A stretch of DNA of 64,000 nucleotides, taken from positions 1 through 64,000 of the forward strand of contig CALXKU010000010.1 in the NCBI GenBank assembly GCA_944389025.1, in the 5' to 3' direction. A model generated the notes under the pieces. That model saw only the letters and a program-made list of their open reading frames with translations. It had not been told where the DNA came from and searched no databases. Source of the stretch: an uncultured Spirochaetaceae bacterium (GTDB taxonomy: Bacteria; Spirochaetota; Spirochaetia; Sphaerochaetales; Sphaerochaetaceae). Below are positions 8,121 to 60,150 of this stretch, in pieces; positions within the stretch are counted from its first letter, which is position 1, and each line of letters starts with the position of its first letter. The position numbers and the translations under genes are program-made.

Positions 8121-8858
8121 TCACAGAAAGAGCTCGGCTTCCTTTCTTTTTTCGCACATTGCAAGGATTCTTTCCTTGAGCTTTGAAACATCACTCTCAT
8201 CATAGCCTCTTGCTTTGACAGGGCAGATTGATATGCATCGCGCGCATCCTATGCATTTCATGCTGTCCGTGATATCCGGTCTGAGTTCGTCTATCGCACC
8301 AGATGGGCATGAGAGGTAGCACCTTCCACAGCGTATGCATTCTTTTGATGCCTTTGGCACGAGGAACTTTCCAATCATCTTATATGGCCTGATGCCTGGG
8401 ACGCTTAAAAGCTCGCTTTCTGTTCTAAGACGTTCATCTATTCTTTCTTTGAATGAAAGCAGTCTTGCTTTATCATCATTGTCCGGTCTGCCTGATGCTA
8501 TCGAGCGAAGCATCGAGTGCTCTGCTATCGCACTAACCGCTGCTACCACCCTGAAGCTGCACCCTTTAACAGTATCGAAGAGCTCTATCAGCGTGTCCTC
8601 ATAGGCCCTGTTACCGTATACTGCTATGAGGACGGCTTTTGCTCCACCTCCATTCATATTTCTTATTCTATCTATCGCGAGAGACGGGCATCTTCCTCCG
8701 AAAGAGGGGAGGGCGAAATATACAATATCAAAAGCAGAGAAAGAATGTTTCTCTTTCATTTCCTTCCTCGAAATATCTATTACAAAGCCATCGTCCGATA
8801 GCAGGCTTAGGCATCTCATCGTTCCCCCTGTGGGGCTGAAAACAACGCTATATTTCAT
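8121..8858 (-). CDS. Flavodoxin domain-ferredoxin fusion (EFR1 type)
   Basis: A 245-residue cytoplasmic electron carrier. The N-terminal ~150 residues resemble a flavodoxin, with the FMN phosphate loop in SPTGGTMRCL. The C-terminus has two 4Fe-4S motifs, CIRCGRCYLSCP and CIGCARCISICP. Proteins of this layout (EFR1 family ferrodoxins) are common in anaerobes; their physiological partners are not defined. It is transcribed from a consensus promoter that ends 6 nt before the ATG, so the mRNA is predicted leaderless. Confidence 0.85.
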   Translation of the reverse strand: MKYSVVFSPTGGTMRCLSLLSDDGFVIDISRKEMKEKHSFSAFDIVYFALPSFGGRCPSLAIDRIRNMNGGGAKAVLIAVYGNRAYEDTLIELFDTVKGCSFRVVAAVSAIAEHSMLRSIASGRPDNDDKARLLSFKERIDERLRTESELLSVPGIRPYKMIGKFLVPKASKECIRCGRCYLSCPSGAIDELRPDITDSMKCIGCARCISICPVKARGYDESDVSKLKERILAMCEKRKEAELFL

Positions 8859-37770: not shown

Positions 37771-39279
37771 ATGGACGCTGTTGAGAAGTACCTTAAAAGA
37801 GGAAATGTGAATGCAAGGATGCTGCAGTATGTCTCATCACTTTCGCTGGTGAGTGAGGTTTCCCCGTTCGTCGCAGATAGGATTGTGCGTGAGCTGAGGG
37901 ACCAGAGGGAGAATCTGAAGCTTATTGCGAGTGAGAATTTTTCATCGATCTCCGTGCAGGCTGCGATGAGCAACCTTCTTACGGATAAATATGCCGAGGG
38001 CTATCCGATGCACCGTTTTTACGCCGGCTGTGACAATGTGGATGCCATAGAGGCATATGGTGCGAGGAAAGCGGAAGAGCTTTTTGGCGCTGAGCATGCG
38101 TATATCCAGCCACACTCAGGAGCCGATGCCAATCTCTGCGCATACTGGGCGATACTCAACGCTAAGGTGCAGGTTCCGGCGCTTGAAGAGATGGGGATAA
38201 CGAATGTAAGCAATCTCTCAAGGGATGACTGGACGAGGATCAGGGAGGCCTGCCATAACCAGAGGCTTCTTGGACTCGATTACTATTCCGGCGGCCACCT
38301 TACGCATGGTTACAGGCAGAACGTATCGGCGCAGATGTTCGACGCCTATTCCTACTCTGTAGATGAGAAGACGGGACTGCTTGATTATGATGAGATAGAG
38401 CGTCTGGCAAAAGAGATAAAACCATTGATCCTTCTTGCAGGATACTCAGCCTACCCGAGGAAGATAGATTTCAGGAGAATGAGCGAGATAGCGCATTCGG
38501 TCGGAGCCGTTTTCATGGTTGATATGGCACATTTCGCAGGTCTTGTTGCAGGCAAGGTGTTTGAGGATGAGGCCGATCCCGTCAAGTGGGCGGATGTTGT
38601 CACAAGCACTACTCATAAGACACTACGAGGACCCCGTGGCGGTCTTATACTCTGTAAGAGTGAGTTCGCAGAGAGCGTGGATAAAGGCTGTCCGCTTGTA
38701 ATCGGAGGACCGCTTTCGCATGTTCTTGCTGCAAAAGCTGTCGCATTCGAGGAGGCACTTAGCCCGGAATTCAGAAAATATGCCAGAAAAATCGTTGAAA
38801 ACGCAAAAGCCCTTTCATCCGCTCTGATGGAGGAAGGTGTTCCAGTTCTGACCGGTGGAACGGATAACCATCTGATGCTCATTGATGTCACCCCGTTCTC
38901 TCTAAACGGCAGGATGGCAGAAAGCCTTATGAGGGAGGCGGGAATCACCCTTAACCGTAACGCCCTTCCATTCGATCCGAACGGGCCTTGGTACACCTCG
39001 GGGCTCAGAATCGGTACTCCCGCTGTTACAACCCTTGGCATGGAAGAGGAGGATATGAAGGAGATAGCCTCAATCATGGCAATGGTTCTCAAGAACGCTA
39101 AACCTGCGATTCTCAGCAAAGGTGAGAATGCGGGAAAACTATCTAAGAACCGTGCCAAAGTGGATGCCGCGATTCTCGATGAGGCAAGGGGTAGGGTAAG
39201 GAGCCTTCTTGAGAAACACCTGTTATATCCAGAACTTGATCTTGAATTTCTTGAGGAAGAATTCATGATTCATGAGTAA
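37771..39279 (+). CDS. glyA: Serine hydroxymethyltransferase
   Basis: A 502-residue PLP enzyme that interconverts serine and glycine with tetrahydrofolate. The PLP lysine is in VTSTTHKTLRGPRGG. IASENFSSISVQAAMSN and PHSGADANLCAYWAIL are also diagnostic. It is longer than the usual ~420 residues, mainly because of an N-terminal extension and an insertion around residues 130-170, as in chlamydial and treponemal enzymes. A GAGGAGGAG site precedes the ATG, and a terminator follows. Confidence 0.95.
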   Translation: MDAVEKYLKRGNVNARMLQYVSSLSLVSEVSPFVADRIVRELRDQRENLKLIASENFSSISVQAAMSNLLTDKYAEGYPMHRFYAGCDNVDAIEAYGARKAEELFGAEHAYIQPHSGADANLCAYWAILNAKVQVPALEEMGITNVSNLSRDDWTRIREACHNQRLLGLDYYSGGHLTHGYRQNVSAQMFDAYSYSVDEKTGLLDYDEIERLAKEIKPLILLAGYSAYPRKIDFRRMSEIAHSVGAVFMVDMAHFAGLVAGKVFEDEADPVKWADVVTSTTHKTLRGPRGGLILCKSEFAESVDKGCPLVIGGPLSHVLAAKAVAFEEALSPEFRKYARKIVENAKALSSALMEEGVPVLTGGTDNHLMLIDVTPFSLNGRMAESLMREAGITLNRNALPFDPNGPWYTSGLRIGTPAVTTLGMEEEDMKEIASIMAMVLKNAKPAILSKGENAGKLSKNRAKVDAAILDEARGRVRSLLEKHLLYPELDLEFLEEEFMIHE

Positions 39280-39348: not shown

Positions 39349-40716
39349 ATGGCTAAGATACTGATAAAAGACGGATTGCTTGTTGATACCGAGTGGCAGA
39401 GGCATCAGGACATACTCATTGATGGATCTAAGATTGTGCGGATTGCTCCGCATATTGATGAGAGTGCGCTAGCAGAGGATGTTAACATTATAAGCGCGGA
39501 TGGCTTATGCGTCCTTCCCGGACTGATAGACGCACATACCCACTATCATCTTGTAAGCCGTGGGACTGTTACTGCCGACAGCTTCCCTGAGGGCTCCAGA
39601 CTTGCCGCGTTCGGAGGTGTTACGACCGTCATCGATTTTGCTGATGATAACAAGAAAAGCCTCCTCTCGAGCTTTGACTCACGACGTCGCGAGATGAGGA
39701 CAATGGCAATCGATTATGCCTTGCATCAGGGGGTTTATGCCTACCGTGATGATATTAAGAAAGAACTGGAAGAGATAAAGGCCAAGGGAATAGGGACTAT
39801 TAAGATTTTCACGACCTATAAGAACGTTGGCTATCTTGTTGAGAAGCGCGATGAGCTCAAGGAGATTTTCAAAGCATGCCGGGATCTCGGCATCATGGTC
39901 TCGATACACTGCGAGGATGACGGGATAATAACAGGTATTGAAGAAAACTGGAAAGGTACCTATCTTCCAAAGGACCATGCCACATTACGACCGGCAGAGG
40001 CGGAGGCCGAGGCGATAAGGTATGTCGGATCAATAGCGAAGGAGCTTGGCATGCCGCTATACATAGTCCACCTCTCATCACGCCAAGGCCTTGAGGCCGT
40101 ACGGGAGCTCAGGAGTAAGGGAGTTCACCTTACGGTTGAGACCACGCCGCATTACCTTTTCCTTGACAAGAGCAAGCTGGAAGGGGAGGATGGGGCGCTA
40201 TACGTGATGACCCCTCCTCTAAGGACGATGGAGGATAACGAGGCACTTCAGAAAGCCCTTCTGGAGGGGGAGATTCAGGTTGTAGCGACCGATCACTGCG
40301 CATTTACGAGGGAGCAGAAACTCTCGAGCAAAGACTGCCGTACGATCTACCCTGGAATTCCCGGAACGGAGGAGATGCTGCCACTTCTTCACACCTTTGC
40401 GATAAGCAGTGGCCGTCTTTCCCTTTCCCAGATTGTGAATCTCATCTCAACGGGACCTGCGAAAGCCTTCGGACTCTATCCTGAGAAGGGTACTCTCTCA
40501 GAGGGAAGTGATGCCGATATAGTGCTCTTCAATCCGGATCTATCATGGACAATAAGCAGAGAGAGCATACATAGTGCTTCTGGCTACAGTGCATATGACG
40601 GGATGACGGTTACAGGAAAGGTCATGATGACCATACTCCGTGGCAGGATAATCATGGGTGATGGCATATATCTTGGACTTGACGGGGATGGTCAGTATCT
40701 GAAGGCGAAGAGATGA
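39349..40716 (+). CDS. Dihydropyrimidinase/hydantoinase family amidohydrolase
   Basis: A 455-residue metal-dependent cyclic amidohydrolase. Metal ligands are visible: HTHYH in DAHTHYHLVSRG, the likely carbamylated Lys in GTIKIFTTYKN, His in SIHCEDD and IVHLSS, and Asp in VATDHCAF. The enzyme opens the ring of dihydropyrimidines or hydantoins. The next gene starts within its stop codon (ATGA overlap) and encodes a HAD-cytidine deaminase fusion, which supports a pyrimidine-salvage or breakdown role. No dihydropyrimidine dehydrogenase is nearby. Confidence 0.9.
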   Translation: MAKILIKDGLLVDTEWQRHQDILIDGSKIVRIAPHIDESALAEDVNIISADGLCVLPGLIDAHTHYHLVSRGTVTADSFPEGSRLAAFGGVTTVIDFADDNKKSLLSSFDSRRREMRTMAIDYALHQGVYAYRDDIKKELEEIKAKGIGTIKIFTTYKNVGYLVEKRDELKEIFKACRDLGIMVSIHCEDDGIITGIEENWKGTYLPKDHATLRPAEAEAEAIRYVGSIAKELGMPLYIVHLSSRQGLEAVRELRSKGVHLTVETTPHYLFLDKSKLEGEDGALYVMTPPLRTMEDNEALQKALLEGEIQVVATDHCAFTREQKLSSKDCRTIYPGIPGTEEMLPLLHTFAISSGRLSLSQIVNLISTGPAKAFGLYPEKGTLSEGSDADIVLFNPDLSWTISRESIHSASGYSAYDGMTVTGKVMMTILRGRIIMGDGIYLGLDGDGQYLKAKR

Positions 40717-41861
40717 TTAAAGCTGTGTTTTTTGATATGGATGGAGTCCTTGTGGACAGTGAGGAGCTATCCATAGAAATAGGGATAAGATACTTCAAAG
40801 AGAGGGGATACGATGCCAGAAGGGAGAATTTTCTCTCCCACCTTGGAACGGGTATGAGTGATTTCATACTTGGCACCGCATCTGAAATTAAAGCTGAGAA
40901 TGTCTCTGTTGAGGATGCCGACCGCTTCTACCGCTTTGTGTATTCAAAAGAGCTTGAGAGCCATCCTATTGCCATGAAAGGGGCTCGCGAAGTACTTGAG
41001 AACATGAGGGAAATGGGGCTTAAGATTGCGATTTGCTCATCAGCTCAGCGCTGGAAGGTTGAGGCAAACATCTCATCGTTAGGACTTTCTCCCTCCTTCT
41101 TCGATCTTGTTATAGCTGAGGACATGATAAGACGCAATAAGAGCAATCCCGACATCTACCTTCTTGCTGCGGCGATGCTCGGTGTTGACATATCCGATGC
41201 TGTGGTGTTCGAGGACAGCCCCGGTGGCGTGCTTTCTGGGATTAATGCGGGGCTACGCACTGTTGCTCTCTGCACGACCATGGAAAGGGCTGAGGCGGAG
41301 AGCTCAGGGGCGACAAGGGTTATTGAGAATATTGATGAGCTTTCCGGCATTAAAGATGTATTGGCTCTCGAGGATTATCTGTTCTCTCTCAGGAATAAGG
41401 ATATCCTTTATGGAGCCTCTTATGTGAAGGCGTCAGGGCAGAGTGTAAGAGCTGAAGATATCGCAAGATGCATCACTGCTGCGATGCGGGCCCGTGAAGG
41501 GGCCTATGCACCTTATTCGGGCTATAAGGTTGGAGCTGCCTTGATAAGCGCATCAAGCGGGAAAATCTACGTGGGAAGCAATATAGAGAACTCTTCCTAT
41601 GGGGCAACCATATGTGCAGAGCGCAATGCCGTCACTACGGCACTTACTGCGGAGGGAGGGAAACTTGGCATTGACCTTCTTGTCGTTGCAAGCGATGACT
41701 ATCCTCCAGCCCCTCCTTGTGCACTATGCCTCCAGGTGATTGCAGAGTTCGCACGCAGAGATACTCCTGTCATACTTGTGGACACTCTGGGGCGCAGGGT
41801 GGAGTACCGCTTTGAGGAGCTTCTGCCCCATCCGTTCATCTTCCCATCGATGAGAAAATGA
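40713..41861 (+). CDS. HAD phosphatase-cytidine deaminase fusion
   Basis: A 382-residue two-domain enzyme. Residues ~1-215 form a HAD phosphatase/phosphomutase-like domain: nucleophile D8 and acid D10 in FFDMDGVLVDS, motif II in CSSAQRW (~108), Lys 143, and acidic motif FEDSPGG (~166). Residues ~245-382 are a complete cytidine deaminase, with catalytic E303 in CAERNA and zinc ligands C301, C336 and C339 (PPCALC). There is no stop or frameshift between them. I infer sequential action, such as dephosphorylating a nucleotide or sugar phosphate and deaminating cytidine. It is coupled to the hydantoinase. Confidence 0.9.
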   Translation: MIKAVFFDMDGVLVDSEELSIEIGIRYFKERGYDARRENFLSHLGTGMSDFILGTASEIKAENVSVEDADRFYRFVYSKELESHPIAMKGAREVLENMREMGLKIAICSSAQRWKVEANISSLGLSPSFFDLVIAEDMIRRNKSNPDIYLLAAAMLGVDISDAVVFEDSPGGVLSGINAGLRTVALCTTMERAEAESSGATRVIENIDELSGIKDVLALEDYLFSLRNKDILYGASYVKASGQSVRAEDIARCITAAMRAREGAYAPYSGYKVGAALISASSGKIYVGSNIENSSYGATICAERNAVTTALTAEGGKLGIDLLVVASDDYPPAPPCALCLQVIAEFARRDTPVILVDTLGRRVEYRFEELLPHPFIFPSMRK

Positions 41862-41916: not shown

Positions 41917-43191
41917 ATGAAGAGAGTATTGTTATCCCTTTTTTCCATACTCATGCTTGCACTCACATCCTGCGTGAGTACTGATGTGTACCTATCTCCT
42001 CTTACGATGGATGATTCGCTTAGCGTGGAGGAGAAGTTTGAAGCGCTTGGAAAGGAGAGGATCCTTGTAGATGAGCCTGATGTTTTCTTCTCCGGTCAGC
42101 AGTGGCTTGATAAGCTGATGGAACTTACAGAAGAGAGTGAGGATTACATTCTGATCTCTACGTTCCTCGGCTCATCCAGTGAGCTCTTGGAGCCTTTCTA
42201 TGAACTCTTATGCCAGAAAGCTGAAAGTGGCGTTGATGTCTATTTGATAATGGATGGTTCATCCAGCTATGATATGACAGAGTCGAAGGAGTACCTTACC
42301 CCGTTATATTTCCTGAGAGACAGGGGAGTGCATCTTCTTGAGTATTCGCCCTATACGGTAACCCACTTGATTTCCCCCGCTACGCTGATGATAAGGGAGC
42401 ACAGGAAACTCTTCATATTCGATGGAAAATGCTGTGCTATCGGGGGGATGAACCTGAACTATATATCTCTGGGTGCTGGGGATATGGATCAGAGGGACAG
42501 CATGTATCTCTTCCGTTCTGGCAGTCTATGTTCTTCTTTCATAGATGAGTTCGTATCGATCTGGAACGGTGTTTCCGTGGAGAAGATAGATCGTGATGAT
42601 TTCGTAACATCTGATGGCGGGGATGAGGCAATGCTTCCCGCATATCTCTTCAATCAGGGGCCGGGCGGGGATGATTCGATGGCGGAACTCTATTCGGTTC
42701 TCATCAACAGTGCAAAGGAGGAGATTCTCTTCCTGCCGTATCTTCCGGCTCTCGATGAGAACATGATGGCATCCCTTGTGAGGGCTAAGGAGCGTGGTGT
42801 AAAGATAACGATGTTAATCCCCATTGAGCTTTTCAGATACTCAGGGGAAGGAATAGCCTACATTCTTCCGGATATCGTTCCTCTCTGTCATGAGTTCTAT
42901 CTCTGCTATATCGATAAGGGGGTAAAGCCTACGAACCTTCATGAGAAGCTCATGGTGGTTGATGGGCGGTATTCCGTAATCGGCTCCACCAATTTCAATT
43001 ACCGCTCAATGGGACTTAGCAATGAGATTGCGATGGTGATAGACAGCCCAGCTTTCGCCGCTATGGAGCGCTCTCATTTCTATGACAGGATTTCTGAGGG
43101 TTCCATCCTCGTTGATGAGAAGATGGCTAAAGAGATGAAGGATGATATGGGCTCATTCTTCATTTATCTATTCATGTATTATGGAGGCTGA
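41917..43191 (+). CDS. Phospholipase D-like (cardiolipin synthase type) lipoprotein
   Basis: A 424-residue exported protein with a lipobox LALTSC, so Cys 19 is probably lipidated. It has two HKD catalytic motifs: EHRKLFIFDGKCCAIGGMN in the first half and LHEKLMVVDGRYSVIGSTN in the second. This arrangement is shared by bacterial cardiolipin synthases and secreted phospholipases D. Being a lipoprotein rather than a polytopic membrane enzyme, it would act on envelope phospholipids from the outer face. The next gene begins 1 nt after its stop. Confidence 0.88.
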   Translation: MKRVLLSLFSILMLALTSCVSTDVYLSPLTMDDSLSVEEKFEALGKERILVDEPDVFFSGQQWLDKLMELTEESEDYILISTFLGSSSELLEPFYELLCQKAESGVDVYLIMDGSSSYDMTESKEYLTPLYFLRDRGVHLLEYSPYTVTHLISPATLMIREHRKLFIFDGKCCAIGGMNLNYISLGAGDMDQRDSMYLFRSGSLCSSFIDEFVSIWNGVSVEKIDRDDFVTSDGGDEAMLPAYLFNQGPGGDDSMAELYSVLINSAKEEILFLPYLPALDENMMASLVRAKERGVKITMLIPIELFRYSGEGIAYILPDIVPLCHEFYLCYIDKGVKPTNLHEKLMVVDGRYSVIGSTNFNYRSMGLSNEIAMVIDSPAFAAMERSHFYDRISEGSILVDEKMAKEMKDDMGSFFIYLFMYYGG

Positions 43192-59593: not shown

Positions 59594-60150
59594 AGGCCCT
59601 GATAGTAGCAAGCAGCAGGGAAGAGCTCAAACCTTTCAAAGATCAGAGATGCATAAAAGTTGCATCCGGTGTCGGCCTTGTGCTTGCAGCCGTAGAGACG
59701 ATGAGGGCAATAGTCGAGTACTGTCCAGATATCGTTATAAGCGTTGGAAGCGCAGGTGCGATGAACCCTTCTTACAATATAGGTGATGTGCTTTCTTTCA
59801 GCTCTGTCAGCAATGCCGACCAGAATCTGAGCTCTTTCCATCTTCCAAGATTTTCAACATTGAAAAAAGACGGCTCAACCCTTGGCTCTATCAGTCTTTC
59901 AAGCGTAGGGGGTGCTCTCCTTTCTTCCTCAACTTTCGCCTCAAGGCGTGTTGACGGCTATGATGCTTCCGATATGGAAGGCTATGCCGTTGCTCTTGCC
60001 GCTTCAAGCTTCAATATAAGAGCTGCCGCATTCAAGCTGATTACGGATATCGTTGGAGAGAAGCCTTACATTGCGGACTATAGGAGAATTCTCAGAGAAG
60101 GCAGGATGAAGCTTGAGAGTGAGGTAATGTCATACATTGATAGCCTCTAA
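59590..60150 (+). CDS. Nucleosidase of the MTA/SAH nucleosidase-like superfamily
   Basis: A 186-residue protein of the purine nucleoside phosphorylase/uridine phosphorylase fold. IVISVGSAGAMNPSYNIGDV and DASDMEGYAVALAASSF correspond to the nucleobase- and ribose-binding blocks; the catalytic Asp is probably in FKLITDIVGEK. It is shorter than the usual ~230 residues, because the central part is reduced. It may hydrolyse methylthioadenosine, S-adenosylhomocysteine or futalosine; which is not clear. It is the last gene of the operon. Confidence 0.75.
   Translation: MKALIVASSREELKPFKDQRCIKVASGVGLVLAAVETMRAIVEYCPDIVISVGSAGAMNPSYNIGDVLSFSSVSNADQNLSSFHLPRFSTLKKDGSTLGSISLSSVGGALLSSSTFASRRVDGYDASDMEGYAVALAASSFNIRAAAFKLITDIVGEKPYIADYRRILREGRMKLESEVMSYIDSL

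Follow-up and report, generated by a model that had tools for sequence, protein, structure and literature searches.

The locus described here raises the question of what is made by a single gene that encodes a HAD phosphatase and a cytidine deaminase in one frame, and whether the two halves of its product carry out successive steps of one pathway. The gene lies at positions 40713 to 41861 on the forward strand of the window (the whole 64,000-nucleotide stretch of DNA that was analysed) and comprises 382 codons in a single open frame with no internal stop; the host genome is 2.31 Mb in size and 97.6% complete. The initial annotation had identified both domains, had remarked that no well-described enzyme with it was known, and had proposed a three-step route of dephosphorylation, deamination and ring opening. 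Its domain identities and its remark on the pairing stand, but the three-step pathway is not supported in the form proposed.

The N-terminal half (residues ~1-211; 40713 to 41345, forward strand) is a HAD phosphatase of class IA, the class with a C1 cap. Residues 5-185 match Pfam HAD_2 (1.2e-26), and all four HAD motifs are present, with the DxD of motif I contributed by D8 and D10, the S/T of motif II by S110, the lysine of motif III by K143 and the ED of motif IV by E167 and D168. The C-terminal half (residues ~247-377; 41451 to 41843, forward strand) matches Pfam dCMP_cyt_deam_1 at residues 251-350 (7e-15) and exceeds the curated NCBIfam cut-off for the tetrameric cytidine deaminases (TIGR01354; 120.9 against 113.65 bits). 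All of the zinc-binding and catalytic residues are the same as in the tetramer-type enzymes of B. subtilis (1jtk) and B. anthracis (2d30), from which the fusion differs in that its deaminase follows a HAD domain and a linker that is itself conserved. In an alignment of 41 fused homologues every residue that had first been listed as key to the two domains (D8, D10 and K143; C301, E303, C336 and C339) is present and invariant. The same holds for S110, E167 and D168, absent from that list, and for N290 and E292 of the deaminase. The CxE and PCxxC motifs and the substrate-binding asparagine and glutamate of the deaminase are likewise invariant in 53 of 53 alignment rows.

The two halves are joined by a linker (residues ~212-246; 41346 to 41450, forward strand) that carries a YGA-type motif in most fused homologues. 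An AlphaFold2 model of the fusion, built on the homologue alignment, has a mean pLDDT of 92 and a pTM of 0.82, and in it the linker of ~35 residues is ordered rather than floppy and forms two short strands. The N-terminal half has the HAD core with a C1 helical cap, the cap helices (residues 17-80) being placed between strand 1 and the remainder of the core. In Foldseek searches the best PDB fold matches of the HAD half were CbbY and TM_1254, the deaminase half matched 2d30 with a TMt of 0.86, and none of the 50 best PDB matches spanned both halves as such a pair. No description of a HAD and cytidine deaminase pairing was found in the open-access literature, a result that falls short of proof of novelty; the earlier statement that no well-described enzyme has this pairing agrees with both searches. 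The protein appears to be a new architecture built from known parts.

A sequencing or assembly error that ran two genes together could in principle give the same appearance. The fusion is, however, present as one ORF in ~95 of 139 genomes of the family, named genome collection records included, with a full-length match in 39 of the 48 genomes of the same genus (counts from match tables). Fused homologues are 34-75% identical to the fusion, and the family set includes the single-contig genomes G076, G090, G091, G093 and G110. Because the same one-ORF fusion recurs so widely, such an error is excluded; we found no point that supports it and give it practically no credence. The gene therefore encodes a real single protein, as had been supposed, and the fusion is common to most members of a single family of spirochaetes from gut and environmental sources. 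A search at the level of the order added no genomes, as no second family was represented there, and a tblastn search of plasmids for spread of the fusion returned only one distant match, to a HAD alone. In the pairs compared, dN is well below dS in both halves of the fusion (dN/dS of 0.07 for the HAD and 0.01 for the deaminase in L008/L009, and of 0.075 and 0.047, respectively, in L119/L120), and in most of them the deaminase half is the slower-evolving of the two.

Outside the family, in genomes belonging to two other families (G140, G154, G177 and G207), the HAD and the deaminase are adjoining separate genes. The HAD is followed at a short distance by the deaminase in G140 and G154, and in G207 the two stretches are in different frames, at L133:3-632 and 617-1060. 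In G177 the deaminase ORF starts at L132:8266, before the end of the HAD ORF at 8288, an overlap of ~23 bp; a hydantoinase gene lies just upstream of the pair on the same contig, and RpiB and PPase genes are alongside. Since the same two genes adjoin or overlap in these outgroups, with hydantoinase, RpiB and PPase nearby in G177, the fusion probably arose by the merger of two operon neighbours. In G141, G167 and G193 hydantoinase and deaminase occur in one neighbourhood with no HAD between them. In G167 a RihC-like ribonucleoside hydrolase gene (L136:6213-7172) directly precedes the stand-alone cytidine deaminase, an arrangement that favours a role of the locus in pyrimidine-nucleoside metabolism. 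Inspection by eye also showed that outgroup loci have a gamma-carbonic-anhydrase-like gene, which either adjoins the HAD or separates the hydantoinase from the deaminase (L130 gene 10, L131 gene 11, L132 gene 5, L134 gene 1, L135 gene 5 and L136 gene 4).

In a midpoint-rooted tree of 92 HADs, the fused, adjacent and stand-alone HADs of the Spirochaetia form one clade (support 98/99), apart from the other sampled bacterial HADs. Because adjacent and stand-alone HADs nest among the fused ones in this tree, the direction from operon to fusion is one that we infer. The simplest history would be that a deaminase was already in the neighbourhood, that a HAD gene came to lie beside it, and that the two were then fused in this spirochaete family.

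Either half has subsequently been lost or has decayed in some members of the family. The HAD half has been deleted or stripped of motif I in several lineages: a deaminase with no preceding HAD is found in L127 (g2), L146 (g10) and L128, L147 and L148 (g2), while in g13 the HAD lacks motif I (L124, L125) or its N-terminus (L126), and in g21 the HAD region is reduced (L143). A YGAN stretch resembling the one in the fused linkers is retained in L127 but missing from the other stand-alone deaminases, and for this reason the L127 deaminase probably descends from a fused ancestor that lost the HAD. The deaminase tree (133 columns) is poorly resolved and does not by itself separate loss from original absence of the HAD in L128, L147 and L148. 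The reverse is seen in g7 (L140, L141), where the HAD motifs are kept and the deaminase half has neither CxE nor PCxxC; these genomes carry another deaminase match elsewhere. The g7 fused protein (L140:6890-7900, L141:6620-7633), with its intact HAD and decayed deaminase, is a possible pseudoenzyme. Each half can thus persist without the other, and their independent loss implies that the two steps are not obligately coupled. The remnants without motif I in g13 and g21, together with the faster evolution of the HAD half, might suggest that this half is mainly a structural or regulatory element for the deaminase and not an enzyme. We consider this very improbable: its catalytic residues are invariant in the 41 fused homologues and are present in g7 despite the decay of the deaminase half there.

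The stop codon of a cyclic amidohydrolase gene of the D-hydantoinase/dihydropyrimidinase family (39349 to 40716, forward strand) overlaps the start of the fusion gene by 4 bases. Its product exceeds the TIGR02033 cut-off (409.9 against 393.25 bits), as expected of that family, and is predicted from this score to be a dihydropyrimidinase-type enzyme; it is encoded by a gene separate from the fusion, and any functional link between the two is putative. Over most of the family the recurrent order is serine hydroxymethyltransferase (SHMT; 37771 to 39279, forward strand, by Pfam and synteny), hydantoinase, the fusion, a phospholipase-D-like protein (41917 to 43191, forward strand, by Pfam and synteny), small proteins, RpiB, PPase and RelA. 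In one relative the phospholipase-D-like gene 3' of the fusion is a tandem duplicate (L012:7203-9654). In g7, g10 and g21 the genes between SHMT and hydantoinase match GcvH, GcvPA and GcvPB in size, and in L140 (g7) they were identified as these three. The fusion is found with no adjoining hydantoinase in several genera (L113, L116 and L119-L123), whose genomes mostly carry a hydantoinase elsewhere (G087 has a partial match only), and in G076 no hydantoinase was found (E up to 1e-30), though the fusion is present. The proposed coupling of the fusion with a hydantoinase is not borne out by these genomes.

Ring opening by dihydropyrimidinase requires prior reduction of uracil. Pathway genes were sought in the genome family by family, and no dihydropyrimidine dehydrogenase (PreA) was recognised; as the genome is 97.6% complete, this absence is not absolute. 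The two genes of the DHO_dh family that were found score 97.2 and 85.3 bits against a PreA cut-off of 335 bits, and are a PyrD-PyrK fusion adjoining pyrE/pyrF and a PRK07565-type protein. The PyrD-PyrK gene, a 572-codon ORF at L170 (G000:C10) ~19 kb past the end of the window, unites dihydroorotate dehydrogenase (PyrD) with its electron-transfer subunit (PyrK) and is a second pyrimidine-gene fusion in this genome. A complete uracil-degradation pathway was rejected, since no dihydropyrimidine dehydrogenase was recognised in the genome. With no PreA recognised and with either half of the fusion lost independently, the chain from dephosphorylation through deamination to ring opening is not supported as a unit. 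Nucleoside-metabolism genes identified in the genome are a uridine kinase that exceeds its cut-off, a uridine phosphorylase-like (Udp-like) gene just under its cut-off over a partial stretch (277.8 against 280.3 bits), a purine nucleoside phosphorylase and a gene of the nucleoside-hydrolase family; no match to pyrimidine-nucleoside phosphorylase (PyNP, TIGR02644) was found in the genome, the Udp-like gene being present instead. At 59644-60117 of the window there is a frame of 207 codons, perhaps for a short or diverged nucleosidase, that PNP_UDP_1 matches weakly in two places.

What the HAD half hydrolyses bears directly on whether the two activities are sequential. Every specific equivalog model scores below its cut-off, and the closest-scoring are sugar-phosphate phosphatases: among the NCBIfam models, HxpB gives 80.9 against 191, PGMB-YQAB 79.3 against 153.35 and bPGM 64.4 against 189.4, while of the nucleotidase models TIGR01993 (pyrimidine 5'-nucleotidase) gives 35.9 against 142.9 and Pfam NT5C 21.7 against 24.8. 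Its relatives by sequence or fold, at 21-28% identity, are TM_1254, CbbY, BT pyrophosphatase, beta-phosphoglucomutase, AlnB and HDHD1. The same four catalytic motifs and the C1-cap fold are shared with the HAD-IA group of TM_1254 (3kbb), CbbY (4uar), BT pyrophosphatase (3qu2) and AlnB (4ex6), but the half differs from the beta-phosphoglucomutase/CbbY/HxpB group in scoring below each equivalog cut-off and in being attached to a deaminase. A HAD stretch such as 'GAGENRYIGGVAEQYG' in L130 may also resemble, we presume, the HAD region of plant SOQ1. Related stand-alone HADs in the class adjoin LivHMGF-like transporter genes, or genes for a rhamnulokinase-like kinase and a transketolase. Judged from these similarities, sugar phosphates appear more likely than nucleotides as substrates.

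A sequential enzyme would require the HAD half to be a CMP/dCMP 5'-nucleotidase, with the freed cytidine turned into uridine by the deaminase, channelled or directly coupled; this is the core of the route first proposed. Both active sites are intact, the separate genes adjoin in outgroups, the ordered linker and the pTM suggest a defined arrangement, and the distant relatives include HDHD1/pseudouridine-5'-phosphatase and AlnB. We nevertheless regard this reading as unlikely, given that the NT5C and Pyr-5-nucltdase models fall below cut-off, that some genomes of g2, g10, g13 and g21 retain a deaminase whose HAD is missing or has no motif I, that g7 keeps the HAD beside a decayed deaminase half, and that the related stand-alone HADs have LivHMGF-type transporter or rhamnulokinase-like and transketolase neighbours. 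Were it correct, CMP and dCMP would be converted directly to uridine and deoxyuridine in a deaminase tetramer bearing four phosphatase domains, in one spirochaete family and undone in some of its lineages where either half was lost, an outcome that we hold to be doubtful. Acinetobacter MtlD (mannitol-1-phosphate dehydrogenase/phosphatase, 7ocn) similarly has an N-terminal HAD-IA phosphatase on a metabolic enzyme, but the enzyme to which it is attached, and the pathway, are different ones. The HAD of MtlD takes the product of the dehydrogenase as its substrate; for the fusion such a relation would be hypothetical. In another reading the HAD half would dephosphorylate ribose-1-phosphate or deoxyribose-1-phosphate (or the 5-phosphate) after uridine phosphorylase had cleaved the deaminase product. 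The sugar-phosphate phosphatases closest to the HAD half, the Udp-like gene and the conserved neighbour RpiB (ribose-5-phosphate isomerase B) are consistent with this, but it would be wasteful to destroy a useful pentose phosphate, and we think it rather improbable.

The reading that we favour, with moderate confidence, is that the gene encodes a bifunctional protein derived from fused operon neighbours, in which a working deaminase and a working phosphatase are co-produced but not obligately channelled. The C-terminal half is predicted to be a zinc-dependent cytidine/deoxycytidine deaminase of the homotetrameric type, although its substrate could be a modified cytidine, and its product, uridine or deoxyuridine, would be used by the uridine kinase and the uridine phosphorylase-like enzyme that the genome encodes. 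The N-terminal half is predicted to be a magnesium-dependent HAD phosphatase with D8 as the aspartate nucleophile and D10 as the general acid/base, and would hydrolyse a small phosphomonoester, most likely a pentose or other sugar phosphate or a nucleoside phosphate that belongs to this salvage metabolism too. Both halves would be made together in a fixed ratio, with four HAD domains on each deaminase tetramer. Against this reading, the family-wide persistence of the fusion could itself argue for coupling.

The history of the fusion can be read in living relatives, in which the deaminase occurs alone, with the HAD adjoining, fused to it, and then with one half lost or decayed. A protein of this kind should not be named after one half only. 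For these bacteria it raises a concrete question that is cheap to answer, namely which phosphate ester meets cytidine salvage.
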